DNA from: Spartobacteria bacterium
GTDB lineage: Bacteria; Verrucomicrobiota; Verrucomicrobiia; Chthoniobacterales; Chthoniobacteraceae
Reading direction: 5' to 3'
Length of the DNA stretch: 17,120 nucleotides
Assembly: GCA_025350985.1 (NCBI GenBank)
Contig: JANXWU010000075.1
Span: 1 to 17,120 of the forward strand
Positions within the stretch are counted from its first letter, which is position 1, and every line of letters begins with the position of its first letter. Below the pieces are notes generated by a model. It ran no database searches and had not been told where the DNA came from. It worked only from the letters and a program-made list of their open reading frames with translations. Below are positions 2 to 13,292 of the stretch, in pieces. The position numbers were made by a program, and so were the translations under genes.

Positions 2-1063
2 TTCGCCTCCGCCGAAGAACGGAAGAAAGCAGGGGGCTTCGTGGGGCTGGGCGGCGCGTACGCCGAACATTCCGATCCCGACGTGGCGCGGATGGCCAAA
101 ATTATCCGCAACACCATGACGCGCCTGCATGCGGAAATTTCGCGCTCGATTTCCTTCTACCGCACCCAGCAGCAGGGCGCGCAGCCGGTGCGCGTATTCC
201 TGGCCGGCGGCGCGTCGAGCCTGCCGTACATGCGCGAGTTTTTTCACGAGAAACTGCAGATGCCCGTCGAGTATTTCAACCCGCTGCGCAACGTCGCCAT
301 CGGGCCGGATTTGGACGGGCAGGAAGTGGGCAAGCACGCGCATTTGCTCGGCGAAATGGTCGGGCTGGCGCTCCGGTCGGTCACCGATTGTCCGATGGAG
401 TTGAACCTGCTGCCGCGCAGCGTCGTGCGGGCGCGGGAACTGGCCCGGCAGCGGCCTTATTTTCTGCTGGCTGGCGCGTGCGTGTGGCTTTGCCTCGGCC
501 TGCTTTGGTTCTTTTTCACGCAGGCGGAAAAGGTGAAGGCCGATGAGCTGGCGAAGTTCCAGCCAAAGGTCACCGCGCTGAAAAATTACGAGGGTAAATT
601 TGCGGCCGTGCGAAAGGAAATCGCGGAGTTGAAGCAGACCGCCGCGCCTTTGGTGCAGGCCGCTGACGACCGGCAGTTCTGGGTGAAAATTGTCGATGAC
701 GTGAACGCGCGGCTGCCGAAGGAATTCATTTGGGTGACGCTGCTCGACCCCGGATTCAGCAACGCCGACGGTTCTTTTTCCTCCGCGGTCTCCGAAGTCG
801 GCGCGCCGGCCTCGGTGACCACCACCGAGTCCGCTCCGGTGCGAGGCGGCGAAGCGTCGCGCGTGCTCGGTGTGCGCATTCGCGGGCTGTATTTGGTCAA
901 CCCCAAAGGGCTCGCCGTGGTCGATGAATTTTTCCAGGAACTGAGCAAGTCGCCCTACCTCGCTAACGTGAAACTGGCCACGCGCGCGCAGCCGACGGAG
1001 ACGGCGTGGGCCTTCGACTACGACATTCGCGCCGAGCTGAAAAAGCCGATCGTGCTGCCATGA
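2..1063 (+). CDS. PilM-PilN fusion protein of a type IV pilus-like complex (5' partial)
   Basis: The frame is open from base 2 and has no credible start in the window, so the gene begins upstream; the GTG at 41 is internal. The first ~130 codons resemble the C-terminal part of PilM, an actin-like ATPase: a phosphate-binding-type loop FLAGGASSLP, then PVEYFNP and a C-terminal helix. Without a stop the frame runs into a PilN-like protein: MELNLLP (codon at 395) matches the INLLP motif that opens PilN, followed by a basic stretch, one membrane segment (about 455-523), a probable coiled coil (about 530-660) and an alpha/beta periplasmic domain. PilM normally binds that cytoplasmic PilN motif, so here ligand and receptor are covalently joined. 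Its stop overlaps the next gene by four bases (ATGA). A separate PilN start at ATG 395 is possible, but no ribosome binding site precedes it. The family calls are from recognised motifs; the fusion is read directly from the sequence. Confidence 0.8.
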   Translation, partial: FASAEERKKAGGFVGLGGAYAEHSDPDVARMAKIIRNTMTRLHAEISRSISFYRTQQQGAQPVRVFLAGGASSLPYMREFFHEKLQMPVEYFNPLRNVAIGPDLDGQEVGKHAHLLGEMVGLALRSVTDCPMELNLLPRSVVRARELARQRPYFLLAGACVWLCLGLLWFFFTQAEKVKADELAKFQPKVTALKNYEGKFAAVRKEIAELKQTAAPLVQAADDRQFWVKIVDDVNARLPKEFIWVTLLDPGFSNADGSFSSAVSEVGAPASVTTTESAPVRGGEASRVLGVRIRGLYLVNPKGLAVVDEFFQELSKSPYLANVKLATRAQPTETAWAFDYDIRAELKKPIVLP

Positions 1064-2199
1064 ACTGGATCAAAGAAAACAAGTTTCTGGCTGGCTTTCT
1101 TGGCGTGCTGTTGCTGGGCGTGCTCGGCGGCGGGTGGCTGACTTGGTCGGCCTACGGAAAGTACGATGAGACGTCGCAAACTTTTGAAAAGGAGGCGCGC
1201 GAGTATAATCGGCTGCGCACGCTCAAGCCTTACCCCGACCAAAAAAATCTGGCTGAACTGAAGAACGCGAAAGACGGTTTCGCCGCCTCGATCATGAGCC
1301 TGCAAAAAACGCTGGCGGCGCTCGTGCTGCCGAATGAGGAACTGAAAACGCAGGAGTTTCAGGATCGTTTGAACAAGACCGTCCTAGCCGTCCGCACTCG
1401 CGCGGCCAAAGTTGCTCCCTCCACCCCCGCGCCTGCGGCTCTGGGCGCGGTTGCGGTCGCTCCGCTGAAGCTGCTGCCCGACCGGTTTTATCTCGACTTC
1501 GACCGTTACCAAAATGAACTGCCGCGCACGGAGATGGCCGCGACCGCATTGAATCGGCAGTTGAAGGCGCTGGAGTTTGTGGCGAACGAATTGATTGACG
1601 CGAAGATCGACGCATTGACGCTGTTCAAACGCGGCGCATTGCCCGAGGAATCAGGCTCACCGGCGCCCCCACCGCCACGCGCCTCCGGCGGCAAAGGCAG
1701 GGGCAGCGCGCCTGGCCCCGCCGCGCCGCTGGTTGTGAAGCACACGCTGGAAATTGGCTTCGTATCCGATCCGACGGCGTTTCGCCGGGTGCTGAACACA
1801 TTGAGCAGCACGAAGAAACAGTTTTTCATCGTGCGGTCGTTACAGGTGCGAAATTTGGAAACCAAGGGACCATCGCGTGGTGGCTTGGAAGACGCTCCGC
1901 CCGCTCCAGAACCGCCCCCCGGTGCTCCTCCTGCCGACCCCGTCCCGCCCACGCCGACCCAGAGTTCCACCCCGGAAATCCTCCTGGCGCAGGCCGCGCC
2001 CGCCCGACCTGTCCCACCTGCAGGCGTTGTGAAAGGCACCGTCCCTGCCGCCCCGGCGGCGGCACCGGGCGCCCTTCCCGCGGCGGCACCCGAGGCTCAG
2101 CCGCCCCTCGCTCCGCCGAAATACATTGTCGGCGAGGAGAAAATCGTCGTCATCATCAAATTGGAAATCGTCGATTTTCCCGTCGTGCAAATCAAATAA
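1060..2199 (+). CDS. Amuc_1100-like pilus-associated membrane protein (PilO position)
   Basis: This 379-residue protein starts at ATG 1060, which overlaps the stop of the previous gene; the open frame reaches back to 1006, but the ATGA overlap and the MNWIKENK start decide for 1060. A single membrane helix (residues ~8-29) follows a short cytoplasmic end, then a charged helical region (~35-120), a mixed alpha/beta region (~145-195), a Pro/Gly/Ala linker (~199-224), a second alpha/beta domain (~225-270), a long Pro/Ala-rich linker (~275-351) and a final strand segment (EKIVVIIKLEIVDF). The MNWI start, the segment with LEIGFVSDPTAF and IVRSLQVRN, and the closing strand after YIVGEEK line up with my memory of Akkermansia muciniphila Amuc_1100 (about 317 residues). 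Extra length here is mainly low-complexity linker. Between PilMN and PilP/Q-like genes, it occupies the PilO slot, and its topology fits that. Function in pilus assembly is inferred. Confidence 0.78.
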   Translation: MNWIKENKFLAGFLGVLLLGVLGGGWLTWSAYGKYDETSQTFEKEAREYNRLRTLKPYPDQKNLAELKNAKDGFAASIMSLQKTLAALVLPNEELKTQEFQDRLNKTVLAVRTRAAKVAPSTPAPAALGAVAVAPLKLLPDRFYLDFDRYQNELPRTEMAATALNRQLKALEFVANELIDAKIDALTLFKRGALPEESGSPAPPPPRASGGKGRGSAPGPAAPLVVKHTLEIGFVSDPTAFRRVLNTLSSTKKQFFIVRSLQVRNLETKGPSRGGLEDAPPAPEPPPGAPPADPVPPTPTQSSTPEILLAQAAPARPVPPAGVVKGTVPAAPAAAPGALPAAAPEAQPPLAPPKYIVGEEKIVVIIKLEIVDFPVVQIK

Positions 2200-2204
2200 C
2201 GCGC

Positions 2205-3221
2205 ATGGACTGGATCAAGGCCCACTACGAAAAATGTCTGCTCGCGCTCACCGCGCTGCTGCTGTTCGCGCTTTCCGGGGTGCTTATTTTTAAGACGCGC
2301 ACCTTCAACGAGGTCTTCGCTCCCGTGACTAGTGAGCCGGCGCACAATAACAAAGTGGAAAAGGTCGATGAGGCGGAACTCGTGCGGGTGCAGGAGGAGA
2401 TTCAAACTCCCGCGAAATGGAAAATTGAAGACAACGGGACGCCGCGCGGCCCGCTGTTCGTGACGTATCGGTACATCATCAAAGACGAGAAGCCCTACAA
2501 TCCACTCGACCCCAAATCGCCGCCCTTCCATTACATCGCGGTCAATGGGCAAAACATGCCGATTCCCAACCGCTGGTTCACGGAGAACAAGCTCGATTTG
2601 CTCAATCAAAACATCCTGCTGGAGGATCCTGACGGCGATGGATTCACCACGGGCGAGGAATGGATCGGCCTCGACCCCGCGCATCCCGGCGCGCAATCGA
2701 CCGACCCGAACGACAAGGCCTCGCATCCACCGTACACGGTGAAGCTGCGGCTCAAGGATTGGATTCACGTGACGTTCCCGTACATTTTCAAATCGTACGA
2801 AGGCGACCCGAAGAAACCGGCGACGCTGGAACTGCAACTCAGCCCAGTGTCGCGGCGCGGCTCGTCGCCTTTTGTAAAAATCGGCGATCCCATTCCGGGC
2901 ACGAACTTCAAGGTGGTGTCGTTCGAGCCCAAAAAATTCACGGACGCCAACGACTTGGAAAAGGATATTTCGGAACTCAAGATCGTGGACACGGCCGGCA
3001 AGGAGATCGTTTTGATTTTCAACAAGCCCGCGGAATCGCCCAATTCCTTCGCCGTCTTTCAGTATCTGATCGATGGCACCGTGTTCCGAGTGCAGATTGG
3101 CCAGAGTTTTTCCTTGCAGCCAGAGGCGGATAAAAAATACAAACTGCTGGACATCAAACAAACCGAAGCCGTCATCCAGGACGAGAAAGCCAACAAGCCC
3201 ATTACCGTGCCGCATTTGTAA
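2205..3221 (+). CDS. Amuc_1099-like membrane-anchored periplasmic protein (PilP position)
   Basis: The 338-residue protein begins five bases after the previous stop. It starts MDWIKAHYEK, closely paralleling the MNWIKENK start of its upstream neighbour, and has one membrane helix at about residues 10-30; the rest should be periplasmic. At residues 141-152 there is a D-x-D-x-D-G-x4-E-E pattern (D141, D143, D145, E151, E152) resembling the calcium loops of EF-hand/thrombospondin type 3 repeats, followed by further Asp residues. The C-terminal half carries two similar beta-rich segments, one around FVKIGDPIPG and one around FRVQIGQSF, that resemble the homology region of PilP/GspC, which docks to the secretin N-terminus. 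It directly precedes the secretin gene. Correspondence to Amuc_1099 is from order and general layout; the PilP role is inferred. Confidence 0.68.
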   Translation: MDWIKAHYEKCLLALTALLLFALSGVLIFKTRTFNEVFAPVTSEPAHNNKVEKVDEAELVRVQEEIQTPAKWKIEDNGTPRGPLFVTYRYIIKDEKPYNPLDPKSPPFHYIAVNGQNMPIPNRWFTENKLDLLNQNILLEDPDGDGFTTGEEWIGLDPAHPGAQSTDPNDKASHPPYTVKLRLKDWIHVTFPYIFKSYEGDPKKPATLELQLSPVSRRGSSPFVKIGDPIPGTNFKVVSFEPKKFTDANDLEKDISELKIVDTAGKEIVLIFNKPAESPNSFAVFQYLIDGTVFRVQIGQSFSLQPEADKKYKLLDIKQTEAVIQDEKANKPITVPHL

Positions 3222-3269
3222 CGAGGCACGCGCCAAAGCAACCGCGGATTTTTCCCAACCAGCCCACGT

Positions 3270-5966
3270 ATGAACACACCCCAGATGACTGTCCTTTGCA
3301 CGCTGACTGCGGCGTGCCTGTTGAATTCCGCCTTCGCGGAAACCCGGCGCGTCCAAGTCGCTTCTGTCTCCGCCGAAAGCGCGGCTGAGCGTGAAGACGC
3401 CCGCCGTCAGCAGATGGTCACCCGCGCCAAAGGCGTGATCAAGGACGGCGACAAGGCGATGAAGGAAAAAGACTACGAACAGGCGGTGAACCTGTATCAG
3501 ACCGCCGCCGATTCGTTGCAGGATTCGCCGCGGACGCACGGGCTGCACGAGGATGCAGTGGACAAATTTTGCGACGCTAGCGTGAAGCTTGCCTTGCAGC
3601 GGATCGACGAAGGCCGCTGGGCCGACGCCAAGCGCCGCCTCGAAACCGTGCTCGACGAAAAATACACCGGCAAACAGGGCGACCCGTTTCGCAACCGCAT
3701 CGGGCAACCGGCTCACAGCGCGCGCGTGCTCCTCGCGAAGCTGGAAGACCCGCAATACTACAACCAGACGATCACGCCGAAATTCCGCGAGAGAATCGAC
3801 AATGTGAAGCAGTTGATGCTCGATGCGCAGGGCTTTTACGACACCGGCCGCTACGACCTCGCCTTTAAGCGGTGCGAGGAAATTCTCGGTAACGACCCTT
3901 ACAACATTGCCGCCCGCAAGATGCAGGAAAAAATTAACCTGCAGCGCGATAACTCGGCCATCTCGGGCTATAACGAAGGCCGCTCGCGCGCTCTGTGGAT
4001 GGTGCAGAAAGGTTGGGAGTACCAGCCGCGTCGCTACGGTGCCAACAAGGTGGTGGTGATGGAGCAGCAGCCGACCGAAAAAGTCGGCACGGCGAGCATC
4101 ACGAAAAAGCTCAACGAGATCATCATCCCGACCGTCAAGTTCGACAACGTCACCATCCGTGAGGCGATTGATTTTCTGAAAAGGAAAAGCATTGATCTCG
4201 ACCCGGAAAAGAAAGGGGTGAACATCGTATTGCAATTGGACGCCGGTCCGGGCGCCCCTGCGGTGGCTGTCCCGGACGCCGCAGCACCGCCTGCGCCGGG
4301 GATTCCCGGCATCCCCGGCGTGCCCGATGCGGCTCCTGCCCTGCCCGGTGCCGCTCCGGGAGGGGCGGTCAGTGCGGAGACGCGGATCACGCTTTCTCTC
4401 GCTCAAATTCCGTTGATCGAGGCGCTCAAATACGTGACCAGCCTTTCCAATTTGAAATACAAAATCGAACCGTTCGCGGTTTCGGTCGTCCCGTCGTATG
4501 TGAGCGTCGATGTGCTGGTGACAAAGGAATACAAGGTTCCGCCCGGTTTCATCAGCGCCTCGCCCATCGGCGGAAACAATGCCCTTGCAGCCCCAGCCGG
4601 CCCAGTCGCCGCTGCGGGACCACCCGGTGGTCCTGCGTTGGCGGGCCGGGCCAGTGCACGCGATTACCTTGAAGGCCGCGGGGTGACGTTCCCGCCGGGA
4701 TCCAGCGCGATTTTTATTCCCACCAGCAGCCGTCTGGTCGTGCGCAATACGCAGGTGAATCTCGACCTCGTCGATGCGATCGTCGATGCCTCGTGGCAGG
4801 CGTTGCCATCGCAGGTGGACATCGAGGCGAAGTTTGTCGAGATCAACCAGAACAACCTCAAGGAACTGAGTTTCGACTGGTTGCTCGGACAGTTTAACCT
4901 GCCGCACACTAAAAAAGTCTTCGGCGGCGGCGGCACTTCTGGAAATCAAACAGTCGGCGGTGCGCTCGATTTTCCTTTCACCCCGCCCGGCTCCACGACC
5001 CCGGTGGGAGCATTTCCGCTCTCGCCTGGAAACCGGAACGGCTCGGTCGCCATCACGGCCAATGCGGTGGACGCTTTGCTGGCCGGCACGGGGCTGGGAG
5101 CCGCCTCCAAGATTGCACCCGCCATTTTCTCCGTCGCGGGAATTTTCACCGATCCGCAGTTCCAACTGGCCATTCGGGCGCTCAACCAAAAGAAGGGCAT
5201 CGACTTGCTCTCCGCGCCCCGCGTCACGACCAAGAGCGGTCAGAAAGCGGTCATTGAAGTCGTGCGTGAATTCCGTTATCCCACGGAGTTCCAGCCGCCC
5301 CAAATCCCGACGAACGTCGGCAGCGGCGGTGGCGTGACCACGGCGCTCCCCGGCCAAAGCGTGACGCCTCCGAGCATTCCGATCACGCCTACGACCCCGA
5401 CGGCGTTTGAAACCCGCAAAGTCGGGGTGACGCTGGAAGTGGAGCCCGTGGTGGGCGCGGACGGCCAGACCATTGACCTCAATCTCCAGCCCGAAGTTGT
5501 GGAATTCGAAGGCTTCATCAACTACGGCAGCCCGATTCTGGCCCCGCCCACGCAGTCCACTAATCCGCTCACCGGATTGCTCACGACCAACACGCGCGAC
5601 CAGCGTGTCCTCACGGACAACATCATCAACCAGCCGATTTTCAGCACCCGCAAAGTGCAGACCAACGTCACGCTCTGGGACGGCCAGACCGTCGTCATCG
5701 GCGGGTTGATTCGCGAGGACGTGCAGAAAGTAGAGGATAAAACTCCGCTGCTGGGCGACCTCCCGTTCATCGGACGTTTGTTCCGTTCTTCATCCGATCA
5801 GCACTTGAAGAAAAACCTGATGATTTTCCTCACTGCCCGCTTGGTAAATCCTGCCGGCGATCCGGTGCATTCGACCGAGGAAGAGGAAGAGATGGCAGAA
5901 GTCCTGGCACCGCCGCCGGCGCCGCTCCCGCCCATCATGCCGGCGGCACCGGGCTTCGCGAAATAA
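3270..5966 (+). CDS. PilQ/GspD-type outer-membrane secretin (Amuc_1098-like)
   Basis: This 898-residue secretin should form the outer-membrane pore of the pilus or secretion complex encoded upstream. Residues 1-23 look like a Sec signal peptide ending AFA before ETRR. Residues ~45-230 are helical with TPR-like patterns (e.g. KDYEQAVNLYQTAADSL and GRYDLAFKRCEEILGNDPYN). A secretin N-type domain begins near residue 275 (VKFDNVTIREAIDFLKRKS) and is interrupted by a Pro/Ala/Gly linker (~326-372); a second linker lies near 434-464. The C-terminal secretin domain (~600-865) is canonical: LSAPRVTTKSGQKA, then GVTLEVEPVV, then DGQTVVIGGLI and TPLLGDLPFIGRLF, ending LMIFLTARLV. An Ala/Pro tail closes the protein. 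It is longer than many PilQ proteins because of the TPR region and linkers. No clear ribosome binding site lies in the 48-base gap before ATG 3270. The secretin assignment is firm; pilus rather than type II secretion is inferred from PilM/PilN. Confidence 0.92.
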   Translation: MNTPQMTVLCTLTAACLLNSAFAETRRVQVASVSAESAAEREDARRQQMVTRAKGVIKDGDKAMKEKDYEQAVNLYQTAADSLQDSPRTHGLHEDAVDKFCDASVKLALQRIDEGRWADAKRRLETVLDEKYTGKQGDPFRNRIGQPAHSARVLLAKLEDPQYYNQTITPKFRERIDNVKQLMLDAQGFYDTGRYDLAFKRCEEILGNDPYNIAARKMQEKINLQRDNSAISGYNEGRSRALWMVQKGWEYQPRRYGANKVVVMEQQPTEKVGTASITKKLNEIIIPTVKFDNVTIREAIDFLKRKSIDLDPEKKGVNIVLQLDAGPGAPAVAVPDAAAPPAPGIPGIPGVPDAAPALPGAAPGGAVSAETRITLSLAQIPLIEALKYVTSLSNLKYKIEPFAVSVVPSYVSVDVLVTKEYKVPPGFISASPIGGNNALAAPAGPVAAAGPPGGPALAGRASARDYLEGRGVTFPPGSSAIFIPTSSRLVVRNTQVNLDLVDAIVDASWQALPSQVDIEAKFVEINQNNLKELSFDWLLGQFNLPHTKKVFGGGGTSGNQTVGGALDFPFTPPGSTTPVGAFPLSPGNRNGSVAITANAVDALLAGTGLGAASKIAPAIFSVAGIFTDPQFQLAIRALNQKKGIDLLSAPRVTTKSGQKAVIEVVREFRYPTEFQPPQIPTNVGSGGGVTTALPGQSVTPPSIPITPTTPTAFETRKVGVTLEVEPVVGADGQTIDLNLQPEVVEFEGFINYGSPILAPPTQSTNPLTGLLTTNTRDQRVLTDNIINQPIFSTRKVQTNVTLWDGQTVVIGGLIREDVQKVEDKTPLLGDLPFIGRLFRSSSDQHLKKNLMIFLTARLVNPAGDPVHSTEEEEEMAEVLAPPPAPLPPIMPAAPGFAK

Positions 5967-5983: not shown

Positions 5984-6580
5984 GTGCCCGTCTTGGGAAT
6001 CACGGGTGGCCTTGCCACCGGAAAAACCACCTTCACGCGGCTGCTCCGAGAGCGGATCGACGCTGACCTTTTCGACGCCGACGCCTGCGCCAGGGCACTG
6101 CTTGACCGCGATCCTGAAATCCGAGAAAAAGTGCGCGTCACCTTTGGCGCGACGGTTTTTGATGCAGACGGCAAACCCAATCGCGAACGGCTGCGGCAAA
6201 TCGTTTTCTCCGATGGCGCGCAAAGAAAGGCGCTCGAAGCGATCTTGCATCCGGCAATCCGGACGCATTGGACGGCATTGGCCGAGGCTGCGGGAAAACG
6301 ATGGCTTTTCGTTGATATCCCGCTTCTATTTGAAACCGGTGCCGAGCCGCTCTTCGATTGCATCGCAGTGGTGGCCTGTTCCCCGGCAATGCAGCGGCGG
6401 CGACTCACCACCGGGCGTGGAGTGGAGCCGAATCTCACCGAACAAATGCTCGCCGCGCAACTTCCCATCGACGTGAAAATTCAGAAAGCCAATCACCTAG
6501 TCTGGAATGAGTCATCTCTCGGTACCCTCGAGGAACAAGCCGGAATTTTTGCGGCCTATTTAAGTCAGCGCCATGGATGA
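5984..6580 (+). CDS. coaE: Dephospho-CoA kinase
   Basis: CoaE phosphorylates the 3'-hydroxyl of dephospho-CoA with ATP, the last step of coenzyme A synthesis, in the cytoplasm. The 198-residue length is normal for the family. The P-loop is at residues 8-16 (GGLATGKTT, where many CoaE proteins have GIGSGKS), followed by the family motif DADACARALL, the segment GKPNRERLRQIVF and the LHPAIR motif of the CoA-binding lid. The start is GTG 5984, just before the P-loop; a GGAG at 5970-5973 sits ten bases upstream, one of the few Shine-Dalgarno-like sequences in the window. It follows the secretin by 17 bases and overlaps rho by eight bases, so it may be read with either or both. Confidence 0.95.
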   Translation: MPVLGITGGLATGKTTFTRLLRERIDADLFDADACARALLDRDPEIREKVRVTFGATVFDADGKPNRERLRQIVFSDGAQRKALEAILHPAIRTHWTALAEAAGKRWLFVDIPLLFETGAEPLFDCIAVVACSPAMQRRRLTTGRGVEPNLTEQMLAAQLPIDVKIQKANHLVWNESSLGTLEEQAGIFAAYLSQRHG

Positions 6581-7877
6581 ACCCACTGCGCCCGCGGCCG
6601 CCGCGCCGCCTCGATCCGCGCCACGGGTCCGAGTTGAGGAATTGCAAGCGCTCCCGCTGCCCGAACTCATCGCCCACGTCCAGGCGGCGGGTGCCCGCAT
6701 CGCGCCCGATCGCTCGCGCCGGCAAATCATTTTCGATTTTCTAAGATTTCTCGGCCAGCGCGGCGTGATTCTGGAAGTGGATGGCATCCTCGAAGCCGCG
6801 CCCGAAGGCTACGGATTTCTGCGGTCGCCCCTGTTCAATTTTCGTCCCGGTCCCGAGGACGCCTATCTCTCGCAGCAGCAGACCAGACAGCGCGGCATCC
6901 GCGGCGGGCAGCGGATTGCCGGGCGGTTGCGCGTGCCACGCGAGCGCGAAAAATACATGGCGCTCGAGGAGATCACGGCCATTGAAGAAATCCCCGTCGC
7001 GCAGTGGTCGGAGCCGAAACACTTCGAGGATTTGACCGCGCAGTTTCCACGAGAGCGGATCATTTTGGAAAATCCGGTCACGCAATCGTTGAGCTGCCGC
7101 GCCGTCGATTTGCTCGCACCGCTGGGACGCGGACAGCGCGGCCTGATCGTCGCCCCACCGCGGGTGGGCAAGACGATCATGCTGCAGCACATCGCGCGCG
7201 CCATTCGCGTGAACTCGCCGGAAACCCATTTGATCACGCTGCTCATCGACGAACGCCCGGAAGAAGTCACCGACATGCGGCGCAGCGTCGATGCGGAAAT
7301 TTTCAGTTCGACTTTTGACGAGCCGACCTCACGTCATGTGCAGGTCGCGGAACTGGTGAGCGAGCGCTCGAAACGACTCGTCGAGATTGGCAAACACGTC
7401 GTCATTTTACTCGACAGCCTCACCCGGCTCGCGCGCGGCTACAACGCCGCCCTGACCGGCAAGGGACGCACGATGAGCGGGGGCGTGGACGCCAAAGCGC
7501 TGATGAAACCGAAACGATTTTTCGGCGCCGCGCGCTGCGTCGAGGAGGGCGGCAGCCTCACCATCCTCGCCACCGCGCTGACCGAGACGCATAGCCGCAT
7601 GGACGACCTGATTTTTGAGGAGTTCAAAGGCACCGGAAACATGGAGCTGCACCTCGACCGGATGCTGGCGGAAAAGCGCACCTTTCCCGCGATCCATATT
7701 TCAATGTCCGCCACGCGGCGCGACGATTTGCTCTACCACCCCGAGGAATTCAAGCGCGTGGAACTGCTGCGTAAAACCTTGCTTCAGCTCCCCGTGGGCG
7801 AGGCGATGGAGGTGCTTATTTCCAACCTGCAGGCGACCAACACCAACGCCGAGCTGCTGCTCGCGGGGATCCGTTGA
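6573..7877 (+). CDS. rho: Transcription termination factor Rho
   Basis: Rho is the hexameric RNA-dependent ATPase that pulls nascent RNA from RNA polymerase. The 434-residue protein has the standard compact form: an N-terminal helical domain (~20-60), a cold-shock-type RNA-binding domain (~65-135, EGYGFLRSP and DAYLSQQQ), then the RecA-like ATPase. Visible motifs are the Walker A loop APPRVGKT (194-201), [28 protein letters not shown], the Walker B region [16 protein letters not shown], the TMSGGVDA Q-loop, [19 protein letters not shown] and [15 protein letters not shown]. Residue 197 is Arg where E. coli Rho has Lys181. No large N-terminal insertion is present. ATG 6573 overlaps the coaE stop by eight bases and the end overlaps the exonuclease gene by four, which suggests coupled translation. 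Confidence 0.97.
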
Positions 7878-9013
7878 AAGCGCTCGTCGCGCGCTGGTGT
7901 GGCCGCCTTTTTTCGCGTAAAGTCCGCCCAGTTTCCACCTACGAGTTTCCCAGCTTGATCACAACCCCGCCAGCGCTCGCCGAACTCGTGGCGCAACTCA
8001 CGCCGCTGGACCGGCTCGGCCTCGACACCGAAGCGGACAGCCTGCATTGCTACCGCGAAAAGCTTTGCCTCATCCAAATCGGCCTGTCTGACGATGACGT
8101 GCTCGTCGATCCGCTGGCCGACCTCGATCTCACGCCGCTTTTCCGTGTGCTGGAAACGCGCGAGCCGATTTTGCACGGCGCGGATTACGACCTGCGGCTG
8201 CTGCACCGCGTCGGCCACACCGGCACGCGGAGAATTTTCGACACGATGATCGCCGCGCGGCTCACTGGCGCGACGGCCTTCAGCTACTCCGCGCTCGTCG
8301 CGGAGCATTTTGGAGTGACCCTCACCAAAGGCTCGCAAAAAGCCAACTGGGCGCTGCGCCCCCTCTCGCCGGCGATGGAGCAATACGCGCGCAACGACAC
8401 GCGCTATCTTATCCCGCTCGCCGAAAAACTCGACGCGCAACTCGACCGATTAAAGCGACGCGAGTGGTTCGACCAATCGTGCGCGCGCGCCGTGGCCTCG
8501 GCCAAAATTTTGCGCGAACGCGACGAGGAAAATGCCTGGCGCATCGCCGGCAGCTCCAAGCTGGATCCACGCGAGAGCGCGATCCTGCGCGAACTCTGGC
8601 AGTGGCGCGAAAAAGAGGCGGGCGTCGTGGACAAGCCGACTTTTCACATCCTGCGCAATGAAGAACTTGTGGACGCGGCGGCGCGATTCGCGCACGGCGA
8701 CGCCGTTCAAGTTCGTCATCTGCGGGGAGGACGCGAGAAGCGATTCTTCGAGGCGGCGGAAAAAGGAATGCATCTCGACGAATCGCAGTGGCCGCAGCGG
8801 CCCCGCGGCACGCGTTCGCGGGCGACGCCGGCCGAAGAAAGACGCTGCGCCGAGCTGAAAAAAAAGCGCGATCAAGTCGCGGAGAAAATCGGTCTTGATC
8901 CTTCGCTCCTCGCGCCGCGCGCCACCTTGGAGCAGCTCGCGATGGAGGGAGATTCCGCGCTTGAAAGGCTGATGCCCTGGCAGCGCGAGCTACTCGGGCT
9001 GGGTCACGATTAG
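7874..9013 (+). CDS. rnd: RNase D-type 3'-5' exoribonuclease with HRDC domain
   Basis: The protein (379 residues from TTG 7874) has a DEDDy exonuclease domain: LDTEADS gives D51 and E53, GADYDLRLL gives D106, and YARNDTRYL gives the Y171-x3-D175 pair. These four acids bind two metal ions for stepwise removal of 3' nucleotides, in RNase D chiefly from tRNA precursors. Residues ~210-290 form an HRDC-like helical domain (ESAILRELWQWREKEA). A second, less clear helical part follows to the C-terminus. The TTG overlaps the rho stop (TTGA); since the family domain begins near residue 22, a later TTG at codon 27 would leave little upstream sequence, so the overlapping start is preferred but not certain. 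Its stop overlaps the stop of the convergent gene. Confidence 0.9.
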   Translation: MKALVARWCGRLFSRKVRPVSTYEFPSLITTPPALAELVAQLTPLDRLGLDTEADSLHCYREKLCLIQIGLSDDDVLVDPLADLDLTPLFRVLETREPILHGADYDLRLLHRVGHTGTRRIFDTMIAARLTGATAFSYSALVAEHFGVTLTKGSQKANWALRPLSPAMEQYARNDTRYLIPLAEKLDAQLDRLKRREWFDQSCARAVASAKILRERDEENAWRIAGSSKLDPRESAILRELWQWREKEAGVVDKPTFHILRNEELVDAAARFAHGDAVQVRHLRGGREKRFFEAAEKGMHLDESQWPQRPRGTRSRATPAEERRCAELKKKRDQVAEKIGLDPSLLAPRATLEQLAMEGDSALERLMPWQRELLGLGHD

Positions 9014-10431
9014 GCTGCAGAACCCGTGCCGCGAAAATCGGCACCGTTCAAGCCAAGAAGTTCACCCGTGCTGTCCGCGAAATGTTCCACCGGCGCGCCG
9101 ACCCGCGTGAGCATGGAGCGATAGAGATTCGCGAGCGGCGTGTTCTTTTCGCACACGACGTGCCGCCCCGTCGCGAGCGTGCCGCCGCCGCGTCCGGCGA
9201 GAACGAGCGGGAGGTTGTGCGGATTGTGCGCGTTGCCATCGCGCATTCCGGCGCCGAAGAGCAGCATCGTGTTATCGAGCAGCGTGCGGTCGCCTTCGCG
9301 CATCGATTTCATTTTGCCGATGAGATACGCGAACTGCTCCAAGTGCCACGTGTTGATGCGCTGATATTGCGCGAGCTTTTCCGGGTCGTTTTCGTGATGC
9401 GAAATCTGGTGATGCGCGCCTTTCACGCCGTCGAGGAAGGAAAAATTCCGCGCGCTCACGGCGTTGCCGAACATGAACGTCGAGACGCGCGTCGAGTCGG
9501 TCCAGAATGCCAGCGCGATCAGGTCGAGCATGAGCCGGACGTGCTCGGTGTGGTTGCCGTGGCGCTCGCTCACCCGCGCGGGATCGCTGTAGGCATCGAC
9601 GCGCGCGCCCAGTTCCTTGATCGCCTTTTCCGCGAGCGGATCGCTGCGCACGGTTTCGTGCTGGCGCTTCGCGTCGAACTCGATCCGCGTCTCGACGGCG
9701 CGCACGGAGTCAAGGTATTCGCCGAGCTTCGCCTGATCGTCGCGGCCGAGTTTTTTCTGCAAACGTTTTGCGTCTTCCAAAACAAGATCGATCACGCTGC
9801 GATCACGCGCGGCGTCGGCTTTGCGGCCGCTGGGGTTCGGTCGAAACAAACGGTCGAACGCGAGTTTCGGATTGATCTCTTTCGCGAGCGGGGTCGTCGG
9901 CGTGCCCCACGCGATGTGCGCCCCATAAAGTTGCGTGTAGCCGACGTTCACATCGACCCCGGTCGCTGGCGGCTCAACGCCGAGTTCGAGCGACGGCAAC
10001 CGCGTCAGATGCCCGATGCGTTTGGCGGCGACTTGATCCATCGACACGCCGCCGCTGCGCAAGTCGCTGCCGCTCGTGCGCGTGATCGTCGTGCCGGTGA
10101 GGAAGCCGCCCGTTTTCACATAATGCCCGTCGCCGGTGTCGCTCGCCTTGTTCCAAAGCTCCGTGAGCACGAGGAGGTCTTCCTGAAAATCCGCGAGCGG
10201 CTGGAGGATCGGCGACAGCTCCCAATCGCCGCCCGCACCCTGCGGCGTCCACGCGTGCGGGTTCACGCCGTTGGGCATGTAAAGCACGCCCATCCGCACC
10301 GGCGCGCCGGTTTTGTTTGCGCTGTTCGCGAGCGCGGTCAAAGGCCGCATCGCTTCGAGCAGCGGCAGGCTCATCGACACGCCGATGCCCTTGAGCAGCG
10401 TGCGGCGGGAGATTTCGAGTTTGGAATTCAT
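9010..10431 (-). CDS. DUF1552 family Tat-exported protein
   Basis: This 473-residue protein belongs to DUF1552, a family expanded in Planctomycetes, Verrucomicrobia and myxobacteria and typically encoded beside DUF1592/DUF1588 cytochrome-like proteins. The start ATG is at 10431 (MNSKLEISRRTLLKG); the longer frame to 10473 would translate a dispersed repeat and is rejected. SRRTLLKG plus a hydrophobic stretch at residues ~8-35 is a twin-arginine signal, so the protein should be exported folded. Recognisable segments include VRMGVLYMPNGVNPHAW, a GGFLTG motif and the LRSGGVSMDQ and GSDL region, and a conserved end with MLLFGAGMRDGNAHNPHNLP. It may resemble the DUF1501/sulfatase-like fold, but no catalytic role is established. 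It is downstream of the GYF_2 gene and converges with the exonuclease gene. Confidence 0.9.
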   Translation of the reverse strand: MNSKLEISRRTLLKGIGVSMSLPLLEAMRPLTALANSANKTGAPVRMGVLYMPNGVNPHAWTPQGAGGDWELSPILQPLADFQEDLLVLTELWNKASDTGDGHYVKTGGFLTGTTITRTSGSDLRSGGVSMDQVAAKRIGHLTRLPSLELGVEPPATGVDVNVGYTQLYGAHIAWGTPTTPLAKEINPKLAFDRLFRPNPSGRKADAARDRSVIDLVLEDAKRLQKKLGRDDQAKLGEYLDSVRAVETRIEFDAKRQHETVRSDPLAEKAIKELGARVDAYSDPARVSERHGNHTEHVRLMLDLIALAFWTDSTRVSTFMFGNAVSARNFSFLDGVKGAHHQISHHENDPEKLAQYQRINTWHLEQFAYLIGKMKSMREGDRTLLDNTMLLFGAGMRDGNAHNPHNLPLVLAGRGGGTLATGRHVVCEKNTPLANLYRSMLTRVGAPVEHFADSTGELLGLNGADFRGTGSAA

Positions 10432-10442
10432 TTTACAAAACG

Positions 10443-10517
10443 TGTCATTCTGAGCGCAGCGAAGAATCTCCATTTAATGTTCGCGCGGAAACTCTCGTTA
10501 GCACGTCATTCCGAGTC
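10443..10517. repeat. Dispersed hairpin repeat, TGTCATTCTGAG type, with a second degenerate copy
   Basis: Positions 10443-10470 carry a sequence starting TGTCATTCTGAG and ending AAGAATCTC. ATTCT and AGAAT form the arms of an imperfect hairpin (10447-10467) around a GC core. A degenerate second copy starts ACGTCATTCCGAG at 10503. This is a familiar type of dispersed intergenic repeat in several bacterial phyla, and its readings (MEILRCAQND on one strand, VILSAAKNL on the other) are well-known spurious peptides. It fills the 66-base gap between the GYF_2 and DUF1552 genes and intrudes into the 3' end of the GYF_2 gene. Confidence 0.7.
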
Positions 10518-11046
10518 TCGTTGCACAGACTTTCAGAGCGTCGCGCCAGAAGTCAGTGCCAAGTATGCAAACCTGCACTTCGACAGGCAATGTCTCCGCG
10601 TCTATCCCATCAAGGACTTGCCAGAGCGTGCAAGGTCCCACCTTTTCCTCGGTCGATTGAAAGAACTCCAGAGAATCTCGTCCCGCCGGCGCGAGTTGTT
10701 GAGGAGCATTTCGATAAAAGACTTTGATTTCATTTAGCCGTTGGATCGCGAGGTCACGGTTAATGGAGACCGTTTTCATTACAGCCTTCAAAATTTGAAG
10801 CAGGGCTCTTTTGTGTTCATGTCGAGCAAGCGAATCGGACAAAGCGCGGCAAAGGAAAACGTGTTCTGGAATGCGGCTCCATTGTTCTTCTCCTGCTCGA
10901 CAAACGAGAGCATCAGAGCGTAGGGCGCCTTTTTCAGCCCGGTGACATACATCGACGAGTGACATCGGTCCGTGTATTTGCGCGTCTTGTAAGAAATAAA
11001 ACCAATCAACTGTGTCCCCGCCGTGAATATTCTCTTGGATATTCAT
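10498..11046 (-). CDS. GYF_2-domain protein, low GC, unknown function
   Basis: This 182-residue protein has an N-terminal GYF_2-like domain at residues ~14-62: DWFYFLQDAQIHGPMS with the GP motif, then LRSDALVCRAGEEQWSRI with the trailing Trp. GYF_2 domains occur in many bacterial membrane or secreted proteins and are thought to bind protein partners. The rest (63-182) is not recognised; it has no signal peptide and no membrane helix. ATG 11046 overlaps the stop of the DUF1592 gene (ATGA), and that overlap sets the start. A hand count of six 60-base lines inside the gene gives about 49% GC, against about 67% for a line in the neighbouring DUF1592 gene. The last ~14 codons lie in repeat-like sequence, so the natural C-terminus may have been replaced. 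It separates two genes that normally adjoin, suggesting late insertion. Confidence 0.75.
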   Translation of the reverse strand: MNIQENIHGGDTVDWFYFLQDAQIHGPMSLVDVCHRAEKGALRSDALVCRAGEEQWSRIPEHVFLCRALSDSLARHEHKRALLQILKAVMKTVSINRDLAIQRLNEIKVFYRNAPQQLAPAGRDSLEFFQSTEEKVGPCTLWQVLDGIDAETLPVEVQVCILGTDFWRDALKVCATRLGMTC

Positions 11047-12926
11047 TTCACCGCGATCCCATCGCTCCCGCGACGATATTGAAACGGATAACTGTTCACG
11101 ATCGCGAGGATCAAAGTTTCGACGCGGTAATGGTCACGCGCGAGCGATTTCACGGTCTGGCGCATGAGCGGCGCGTCGTAAAACTCCAGCCCGCGATTGA
11201 GCGCGTAGGCAAACATTTTTTCGGTGACCGTCCGCGCGAACTCGTCCTTGCGCGCGAGCAGCAGCTTCTTCAACTCCGCGGGGCCGGCGAACTTTTCGCC
11301 CGTCACCAGTTCGCCCGCCGCATCGACCGGCTGACCGGCCAACTCCGTGCGCCACGCGCCGATCCCGTCGAAATTTTCCAGCCCAAACCCGAGCGGGTCC
11401 ATGCGCTTGTGGCAGCTCGCGCAGGTCGCGTCGGCGCGATGTTTTTCAAAACGCTGGCGGAACGTGAGCCCGTCCTTCGGCTTGTCGCTCGCCGAGAGCG
11501 TCTTCACCGTCGGCGGCGGGGGCGGCGGAGGCGAGTCGAGGATTTCCTCGAGCACCCACTTGCCGCGCAGCACCGGACTCGTGCGCTGCGGGTATGAGGT
11601 GAGCGTGAGCACCGCACCCATGCCGAGCACGCCGCCGCGATTGCGATCAGCGAGCTTCACCCGTTGCAACGCGTCGCCCTTCACGCCGTCGATGCCGTAA
11701 TGCCGCGCGAGCGTTTCGTTCACGAAGGCGTAATCGCAGTCGAGCAAATCCATCAGGCTGCCGTTGTCGCGCAGCAGCGCCTGAAAAAATTCGACCGGCT
11801 CTGCCATCATCGCGTCGCGCAGCGCGGGCGTGAAATTTGGAAACTTGCCGCGGTCGGGCACCGCCGTCGTTTTTAACTCGCGCACGCGCAGCCATTGGCC
11901 GGCGAAGCTCTCCGCGAAATCGCGCGCCTTCGCGTCGCGCAACATCCGGCGGACCTGTGCGGCAAGCGTCTTTGGATCGTGCAGCTTTTTCTCGTCCGCG
12001 GCGCGAAACAATTCTTCATCCGGCATCGACGACCAAAGGAAATACGAGAGCCGGCTTGCGAGTGCATAGTCGTCGAGCGGTGCCGCGGTGCTGGTCACGG
12101 CGGGCTCGACGCGGAAAAGAAAATTCGGTGACGCCAGCGCGACCCGCAGCGCTAGCTTCACCGCGTTGTCGAACGATTCCCCGCGCTGGTCCGACCGCTT
12201 GAACAGCGTCATGAGCGCGTCAGTTTCCCCTCCCTCGACCGGCCGCCGCCACGCGCGCCGCGCGAACTCGCCAAGAAGTTTCCGCGCCGCCGCCTCCTTC
12301 GTCGTCGCGCCGTCGGGGCGCGCGGTGAAGATGCGCTCCGGCTTCGCCTTTTCCAAAACGTCGCCCGCCGCGGCGAGATATTGCTCCATCAAAACCGGTG
12401 GCACGAACAGCGTCGCGGAGTTGTTATCGAAGCCGCCGCCCCCGCCGCCGTCGGGTGGGAACTGGTCGGCGGGGCGTGTGTCCACGCCCAGCAGATCGCG
12501 GATTGTGTTGTTATATTCGAGGCGGCTGAGCCGGTGCAGCGGCGCGCGGCCTGGATCGCGCGGCACCGCCGAGTCGTCCTCGAAGGCGTGCTGAATCCAC
12601 GCGACGATCCGCCCGCGTTCGGCATCGGTCGGCTGCGGCTTGTCGTCGGGCGGCATCTCCTCGTCGCGGAGCTGCACGAGCACCTTCTCCCAAGTGCGCG
12701 GCTCGTGGTAAAACGCCGCGCGGTTGCGGAACTGCTCCATGTTCACGCCGCCCTTTTGCTTCTGCGCGTTGTGGCACTTGAAGCAGTGCTTTTCGAGCAG
12801 AGGCCGGATGTCTTTTTCAAAAACCGCATCGTCCGCGCCCGCACGGGCGACGAAGGCGAGCACGCAAATGCCGCGCGTGAGCCATCCGGCGCGGAGAAAA
12901 TGGCGTGTGCGTGTCGCTATCTTCAT
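11043..12926 (-). CDS. DUF1592-family secreted c-type cytochrome-like protein (DUF1587/1592/1588/1585)
   Basis: The 627-residue protein starts with a basic, hydrophobic signal peptide (residues ~1-31, ending ARAGA). A haem-binding C-x2-C-H follows at C48/C51/H52 (CFKCH) within a planctomycete-type cytochrome domain, and a second CASCH occurs at C502-H506 within DUF1588 (CHKRMDPLGFGLENFD). Between them are family hallmarks: LHRLSRLEYNNTIRDLLG (DUF1587), FARRAWRRPV, LASRLSYFLWSSMPDEEL (DUF1592) and a Pro run before TVKTL. The end FARTVTEKMFAYALNRG matches DUF1585. Such proteins are abundant in Planctomycetes and Verrucomicrobia, paired with DUF1552, and are suspected to act in extracytoplasmic redox or polysaccharide chemistry; no activity is proven. 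It lies 12 bases downstream of a toxin gene with no clear ribosome binding site, and its stop overlaps the GYF_2 start. Confidence 0.92.
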   Translation of the reverse strand: MKIATRTRHFLRAGWLTRGICVLAFVARAGADDAVFEKDIRPLLEKHCFKCHNAQKQKGGVNMEQFRNRAAFYHEPRTWEKVLVQLRDEEMPPDDKPQPTDAERGRIVAWIQHAFEDDSAVPRDPGRAPLHRLSRLEYNNTIRDLLGVDTRPADQFPPDGGGGGGFDNNSATLFVPPVLMEQYLAAAGDVLEKAKPERIFTARPDGATTKEAAARKLLGEFARRAWRRPVEGGETDALMTLFKRSDQRGESFDNAVKLALRVALASPNFLFRVEPAVTSTAAPLDDYALASRLSYFLWSSMPDEELFRAADEKKLHDPKTLAAQVRRMLRDAKARDFAESFAGQWLRVRELKTTAVPDRGKFPNFTPALRDAMMAEPVEFFQALLRDNGSLMDLLDCDYAFVNETLARHYGIDGVKGDALQRVKLADRNRGGVLGMGAVLTLTSYPQRTSPVLRGKWVLEEILDSPPPPPPPTVKTLSASDKPKDGLTFRQRFEKHRADATCASCHKRMDPLGFGLENFDGIGAWRTELAGQPVDAAGELVTGEKFAGPAELKKLLLARKDEFARTVTEKMFAYALNRGLEFYDAPLMRQTVKSLARDHYRVETLILAIVNSYPFQYRRGSDGIAVK

Positions 12927-12938
12927 CGAAAAAATGTC

Positions 12939-13292
12939 TTATGCGTGAACGGTCAGCCCGCTGCGGTCGATCTCCACGAAGGAATGAGCCGAAAGCGCAT
13001 TCACAATCAGTGGAAGATTGGCGCGAAAAATCGCGAGCAAATCGTCGTTCGGGATATTGCCAGCCGTTACGAACAGCAACTTCGGCGGAAGCCCGCGCAA
13101 AAGAAACGAATCCACAAAATCCCCATCCTTCGTCACCAACACCATCTGCCCGCCCGATGCCAAATGGCGCAGCCTCTCGTCGGGCGTGCGGTTTTTCTCC
13201 GGTAAATCCAGCGTGTGCAGCGCATCGTGTCCGAGCGATTCCAACAGCCTCGAAAGCCTGCGGGGCAATTGGGCATCCACTAGAAAGTTCAC
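12939..13292 (-). CDS. DUF5615 PIN-like toxin of a type II toxin-antitoxin pair
   Basis: This 117-residue protein has the compact PIN-like layout of DUF5615 (Mut7-C-like): an N-terminal strand with an acidic residue, NFLVDAQLPRRLSRLLESLG, then HDALHTLDLP, then LVTKDGDFVDSFLLRG carrying two Asp residues (KDGDF), and a final strand/helix region. The VDAQLP Asp and KDGDF Asp are the likely metal-binding acids of an RNase. GTG 13292 overlaps the upstream antitoxin stop (GTGA), the usual coupling in such pairs. Its target RNA is unknown. Confidence in the family is high; activity is inferred. Confidence 0.88.
   Translation of the reverse strand: MNFLVDAQLPRRLSRLLESLGHDALHTLDLPEKNRTPDERLRHLASGGQMVLVTKDGDFVDSFLLRGLPPKLLFVTAGNIPNDDLLAIFRANLPLIVNALSAHSFVEIDRSGLTVHA

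Follow-up and report, generated by a model that had tools for sequence, protein, structure and literature searches.

Organisation and conservation of the locus

The window analysed here is a stretch of 17,120 nucleotides which constitutes an entire contig (C109; JANXWU010000075.1) of the draft genome of a Spartobacteria bacterium (GCA_025350985.1; 2.7 Mb in 542 contigs, 88 % complete). At positions 2-5966 it carries, in order, members of the Amuc_1101, Amuc_1100, Amuc_1099 and Amuc_1098 families, as distinguished by NCBIfam profiles, followed by genes for CoaE, Rho and an RNase D-like exonuclease. This cluster probably encodes an envelope-spanning type IV pilus alignment complex, in the Verrucomicrobia version that Akkermansia Amuc_1098-1102 exemplifies. 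An earlier reading made from the letters alone (the sequence-only reading) had placed four genes of these identities at these coordinates, and the NCBIfam matches, which lie far beyond chance, bear this out, including those of 1060-2199 and 2205-3221 in profile searches against the Amuc_1100 and Amuc_1099 families, respectively. The proposed correspondence with the order pilM-N-O-P-Q likewise holds slot by slot. The features of the four genes are as follows:

2..1063 (+): Amuc_1101-like PilM protein, C-terminal part only, with the end of the PilM actin-like domain, a transmembrane helix and a periplasmic domain at the PilN position (NF045709, E 1.3e-95)
461..517 (+): transmembrane-like segment between PilM and the PilN-position domain (fragment residues 154-172; hydropathy 2.33 over 19 residues)
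1060..2199 (+): Amuc_1100-like protein with a PilO-like fold (NF038287, 228.2 bits, cut-off 180)
1084..1140 (+): membrane-spanning helix at the N-terminus of the Amuc_1100-like protein (starting at residue 9; hydropathy 2.06)
1855..2124 (+): Pro/Ala-rich linker in the Amuc_1100-like protein, residues 266-355 (52 % Pro+Ala; low model confidence)
2205..3221 (+): Amuc_1099-like protein with a transmembrane anchor, a calcium-type loop and a PilP-like C-terminal beta domain (NF042425, 187.3 bits, cut-off 50)
2235..2291 (+): membrane-spanning helix at the N-terminus of the Amuc_1099-like protein, with no lipobox (starting at residue 11; hydropathy 2.67)
2625..2660 (+): calcium-type loop DPDGDGFTTGEE, residues 141-152, TSP3/EF-hand-like (motif conservation)
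2733..3218 (+): C-terminal beta region holding the PilP-like fold, residues 177-338
3270..5966 (+): Amuc_1098-like (PilQ-type) secretin with an N-terminal TPR-like region (NF042912, 853 bits, cut-off 750; PF00263 Secretin, E 2.5e-35)

The stop of the Amuc_1101-like gene overlaps the start of the Amuc_1100-like gene (ATGA), and the gaps which follow the latter measure 5, 48 and 17 bases, in that order, suggesting that the genes form a single transcription unit. The Amuc_1101-like gene is truncated at the contig start, so that the fragment covers positions 224-562 of the 608 in the NF045709 profile and its score (321.5 bits) falls under the cut-off of 650. The beginning of an Amuc_1101 gene (profile positions 1-255) stands at the end of contig C245 of this genome, with each of the two pieces scoring below the whole-protein cut-off. 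The last 32 codons of C245 specify the same 32 residues as the start of the window, with 89/97 bases identical, and no exact overlap was found between these two ends. On the strength of this inexact overlap, the two contigs are likely to be parts of a single locus whose assembly drew on slightly different strains; alternatively, the overlap may reflect a second near-identical copy in the genome. Upstream of Amuc_1101 on C245 lies an Amuc_1102-like gene (L118, 4293-4868; NF042424, 96.3 bits, cut-off 55). Its product starts with an ordinary-looking Sec signal (MKKLLFSLCALLMAAPFASA), and by eye no obvious prepilin leader was observed.

A single Amuc_1100 peptide pattern served to find twenty-one loci in named genome records, and the presence of Amuc_1100 among them is therefore by construction. 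In 20/21 of these loci Amuc_1100 comes immediately after Amuc_1101, while Amuc_1100, Amuc_1099 and the secretin are consecutive in 18/21. Two of the three exceptions (L096 and L097) reach the end of a contig, and the third (L108) contains a single merged frame. This frame, found in Rubritalea marina (L108, 6001-7617), starts like Amuc_1100 over its first 88 residues and continues as a secretin, with most of both Amuc_1100 and Amuc_1099 missing, and represents either a deletion or an assembly fault. Tandem pairs of secretin genes occur beside the Amuc_1099-like gene in L075 (7204-13065; genome G078) and L079 (27-5954; genome G006). CoaE is found after the secretin in 10/21 loci and Rho in 13/21, with several loci ending before these genes. 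In the window they are encoded as follows:

5984..6580 (+): CoaE, dephospho-CoA kinase, conserved downstream neighbour (PF01121, E 1.6e-39)
6573..7877 (+): transcription termination factor Rho, conserved downstream neighbour (PF07497, PF00006)

Among the named loci, Chthoniobacter metagenome-assembled genomes score highest against the family profiles of the window, which makes the earlier description of a non-gut relative plausible. The same locus has been designated MUL2, with secretin, dephospho-CoA kinase and Rho neighbours, and its conservation in the order Verrucomicrobiales is greater than that in Chthoniobacterales (PMC13174399, 2026); Amuc_1099 and Amuc_1100 are there called uncharacterized. 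The locus itself is thus known, and the window constitutes an additional member. It shares with Akkermansia Amuc_1098-1102/MUL2 the five families (NF042912, NF042425, NF038287, NF045709 and NF042424), their order and the CoaE and Rho genes after them, but is divergent in sequence, with the linkers of its Amuc_1100-like protein being the longest of the 42 aligned.

The PilM, PilN and PilO positions

The PilM_2 domain (PF11104) exceeds its gathering score in the 2-1063 fragment (38.4 bits against a cut-off of 27) and is matched in 33/33 scanned Amuc_1101 relatives, so that, at the sequence level, the PilM identity of the Amuc_1101-like protein is certain. The sequence-only reading had termed this protein a PilM-PilN fusion; the PilM half stands, while the PilN half is read from the layout and the fusion is unproven. 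The PilN family (PF05137) has no matches in the genome of the window and is matched in 2/33 Amuc_1101 relatives, with a best E value of only 0.04. Comparison of the PilN part of Amuc_1101 with Amuc_1100 at the profile level gave a probability of 80 %, but this covers approximately seventy columns, which comprise the membrane helix and what immediately follows, and proves nothing. A comparison between Amuc_1100 and Amuc_1099 reached 68 % over 29 columns, comprising the membrane helix alone, and such profile-comparison scores therefore carry no weight here. Profile comparison with the single-sequence HofM-Q and GspC, D, L and M proteins of E. coli K-12 yielded nothing significant; the PilM part failed against HofM too, and this comparison thus had no power.

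The Amuc_1100-like protein comprises 379 aa and is the longest of the 42 proteins in its alignment (A1; range 298-379 aa), and the long linkers previously noted from the sequence are evident in its residues 266-355. In the predicted model, the N-terminal membrane helix continues as a long helix (residues 8-54), behind which lies a PilO-like, ferredoxin-like core, and a fold search with this model returned PilO as the best match after the protein's own family. While no Pfam PilO (PF04350) match is listed for the window protein, a deep relative in genome G046, which occupies the same slot, matches both the Amuc_1100 profile and PF04350 (26.2 bits against a cut-off of 22), and this relative passes both the PilM and the PilO cut-offs. 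Thus, of the proposed likeness to the PilO and PilP families at the profile level, the window proteins themselves provide no Pfam match, but the PilO family is reached through this relative. The folds and the one intermediate protein matching both families make the assignment of Amuc_1100 as PilO-like, as had been claimed, well supported.

Few proteins of a next-generation probiotic have been studied as much as Amuc_1100, and it is very unlikely that this protein is mainly a host-signalling protein of the outer membrane or pilus surface, whose place in the operon is incidental to any scaffold role. PMC5332112 reports the enrichment of Amuc_1100 and other cluster proteins in one outer-membrane fraction, immunofluorescence on fixed cells and TLR2 activation by purified Amuc_1100. 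It also states a signal sequence for the protein, which an uncleaved membrane anchor would mimic. A pilus location is given by personal communication in PMC10688800, and the protein is still described as an outer membrane protein in PMC13119276 (2026). However, both the model and the hydropathy profile have the N-terminal membrane helix leading straight into the body of the Amuc_1100-like protein, the title of PDB entry 6kny reads 'without transmembrane region', with its authors thereby recognising such a region, and according to PMC6538878 a type I signal peptide was not found in Amuc_1100. The PilO fold likewise speaks against a surface protein, as does the occurrence of the family, judged from record titles, in free-living species such as Rubritalea profundi, Rubritalea marina and Persicirhabdus sediminis, while a fraction enriched in a complex bridging both membranes would bring inner-membrane parts along. 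By its shape, its membrane anchor and the one intermediate relative, Amuc_1100 looks like an internal pilus-machine scaffold and not an outer-surface protein, and its 'outer membrane' label deserves a direct retest. The host effects of purified Amuc_1100 are not in doubt, since a protein can also be released or become exposed on lysis. The view of the sequence-only reading, that the structural role would be primary and host signalling secondary, is in keeping with the occurrence of the family in the free-living genera. The locus, its synteny and a resemblance of Amuc_1100 to proteins of pili and of type II secretion have been published before; no paper was found which pairs Amuc_1100 with PilO and PilN, or Akkermansia with PilO and PilP (the latter search without subscription journals), and the Amuc_1100 structure papers may already hold the PilO assignment.

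The Amuc_1099-like protein: PilP likeness and calcium-type loop

The Amuc_1099-like protein was modelled with a predicted local distance difference test (pLDDT) score of 91.4, and the best fold match of this model comes from a type IVa pilus model, with the beta fold of the PilP periplasmic domain being present in its C-terminal domain. This fold, as the sole support, makes Amuc_1099 a probable PilP-like protein; of the earlier proposal the fold likeness is retained, while a PilP match at the sequence level was not obtained. Two sets of relatives were considered, namely near relatives (A2), consisting of the window protein and 94 of the 119 others listed (134 passed, 120 listed), and 35 hand-picked deep relatives (A3; the alignments A4 and A5, with 29 and 33 rows, were likewise hand-picked). 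The calcium-type loop motif occurs in 90/95 near and 34/35 deep relatives, as compared to 2/2000 shuffles, and the TSP3_bac family (PF18884) is matched in 38/95 and 31/35, respectively. Many of the deep relatives further incorporate a four-cysteine, zinc-ribbon-like stretch (C..C and CPFC) ahead of the calcium loops, which is absent from the near relatives.

PilP is by definition a lipoprotein. A lipobox motif is found in 0/95 near and 1/35 deep Amuc_1099 relatives, and the window protein has a membrane helix instead and no Pfam family match at E values up to 1. The two departures of Amuc_1099 from PilP, the transmembrane anchor without a lipobox and the added calcium-type loop, are real. Among the 25 Pfam families listed for each of the two sets, the 95 near and the 35 deep relatives, PilP does not occur, while TSP3, EF-hand and zinc-ribbon families do. 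When run as a profile against 5.8 billion proteins, the deep alignment retrieved nineteen, none annotated as PilP, and a sequence-profile search of the PDB with the near and deep relatives returned only calcium-binding and fluorescent proteins. The PilP family PF04351 was found in 0/96 genomes, but also in 0/14 controls, and this search thus says nothing about absence. Tandem PilP-type repeats within Amuc_1099 were considered and rejected, with profile-comparison probabilities of 0.4-3 % for residues 177-276 against 277-338 and for three other cuts. The raw count of Amuc_1099 matches (83/96 genomes of the phylum) was not used, as many of these represent the calcium loop only, in unrelated long frames.

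The secretin, the motors and the proposed machine

The window secretin scores higher against GspD (135.7 bits) than against PilQ (111.7 bits), neither reaching the cut-off, and descent of the locus from a type II secretion system (GspL-GspM-GspC-GspD) instead of a type IV pilus, with the machine exporting proteins, was considered but appears unlikely. The Amuc_1100-like protein weakly matches GspM (E 0.016), T2SSM is matched in 2/42 near Amuc_1100 relatives (best E 0.03), PulL-PulM and EpsL appear in the fold list, and a helix-anchored GspC would suit Amuc_1099 better than a lipoprotein such as PilP. GspL has the same layout as the Amuc_1101-like protein, with a PilM-like domain, one helix and a periplasmic domain, which also counts in favour of this descent. 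The locus further shares related folds, helix-anchored parts and a secretin with the GspL-GspM-GspC-GspD platform (PDB 8ab1 and 2w7v). PilO folds, however, outrank PulL-PulM and EpsL for the Amuc_1100-like protein, for which the GspM sequence match is only weak, and type IV pilus ancestry is also favoured by the deep G046 relative over both the PilM and PilO cut-offs, the top fold for Amuc_1099 and the retraction ATPase PilT which accompanies the Amuc_1100 family. In addition, the genome of the window contains a separate type II-like cluster, with T2SSM_b at 35.3 bits (cut-off 21.7), a prepilin motif, and GspE- and GspD-like genes under their cut-offs. Its type II-like genes, coding for GspM-, GspK- and GspJ-like, prepilin-motif and GspE-/GspD-like proteins, are located on L074 (contig C329) and L087 (contig C444).

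The motors expected of a type IV pilus are encoded elsewhere in the same genome, where contig C235 carries a PilT-family ATPase (460.5 bits, cut-off 319.1) adjoining a PilB-like ATPase (631 bits, not reaching the cut-off of 675.65). PilT exceeds its cut-off in 90/96 genomes of the phylum, of which 71 also have an Amuc_1100 match, while none of the six genomes without PilT (G008, G036, G042, G054, G057 and G072) has one. The chance of this co-absence under random drawing is 2e-4, but the six genomes belong to two families and represent at most two independent losses. Distant Amuc_1100 proteins may have been overlooked in the nineteen PilT genomes without a match. The locus thus resembles the type IVa PilMNOP-PilQ system (PDB 3jc8, 2rjz and 5uvr) in the PilM match, the PilO-like fold, the PilP-like domain by fold, the secretin, the gene order and the PilB/PilT-type motors in the genome. 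It differs in that PilM is joined to the PilN-position domain, that the Amuc_1099-like protein is helix-anchored, is no lipoprotein and carries a calcium-type loop, and that the window proteins have no Pfam PilN, PilO or PilP match.

Building on the gene identities, gene order, folds, anchors and motors found, we infer which parts touch one another, the direction of travel and a role in glycan use. PilM would lie on the cytoplasmic face, joined via one membrane helix to the periplasmic domain at the PilN position, with which the Amuc_1100-like protein, held in the inner membrane by the helix at its N-terminus, would pair in the fashion of PilO. The Amuc_1099-like protein, likewise anchored in the inner membrane, would span the periplasm such that its PilP-like C-terminal domain meets the Amuc_1098-like secretin, which would open the outer membrane. 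The PilB- and PilT-type motors would extend and retract the pilus through the secretin channel, and its output would be attachment to and uptake of glycans, a role taken from PMC13174399 and PMC12631272 (the latter citing Davey et al. 2023).

Placing one much-discussed and one uncharacterized protein, Amuc_1100 and Amuc_1099, in slots of the pilus machine is what lends the locus its interest. More tentatively, and with considerable doubt, Amuc_1100 in living cells may be an inner-membrane PilO-type scaffold with incidental TLR2 activity, and Amuc_1099 a PilP-type connector whose loop is loaded with calcium, complemented in deep relatives by the four-cysteine zinc-ribbon-like knuckle, such that the inner platform would be coupled to the secretin in a metal-dependent, calcium-controlled and phylum-specific manner. 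Were Amuc_1100 of this type, its location, its access to the host and the effect of its deletion would become testable, and the published surface-localisation data would need a second look. Amuc_1099 would gain a defined place between the inner platform and the secretin, along with a testable prediction of metal binding drawn from its loop.

Further along the window, the small protein encoded at 12939-13292 (-) resembles, judged by eye, the PIN-like DUF5615 family of toxin-antitoxin pairs. The adjoining genes at 9010-10473 (-) and 11043-12926 (-) have, also by eye, the look of a DUF1552 and DUF1592-type cytochrome pair, a type of pair common in Planctomycetes and Verrucomicrobia.

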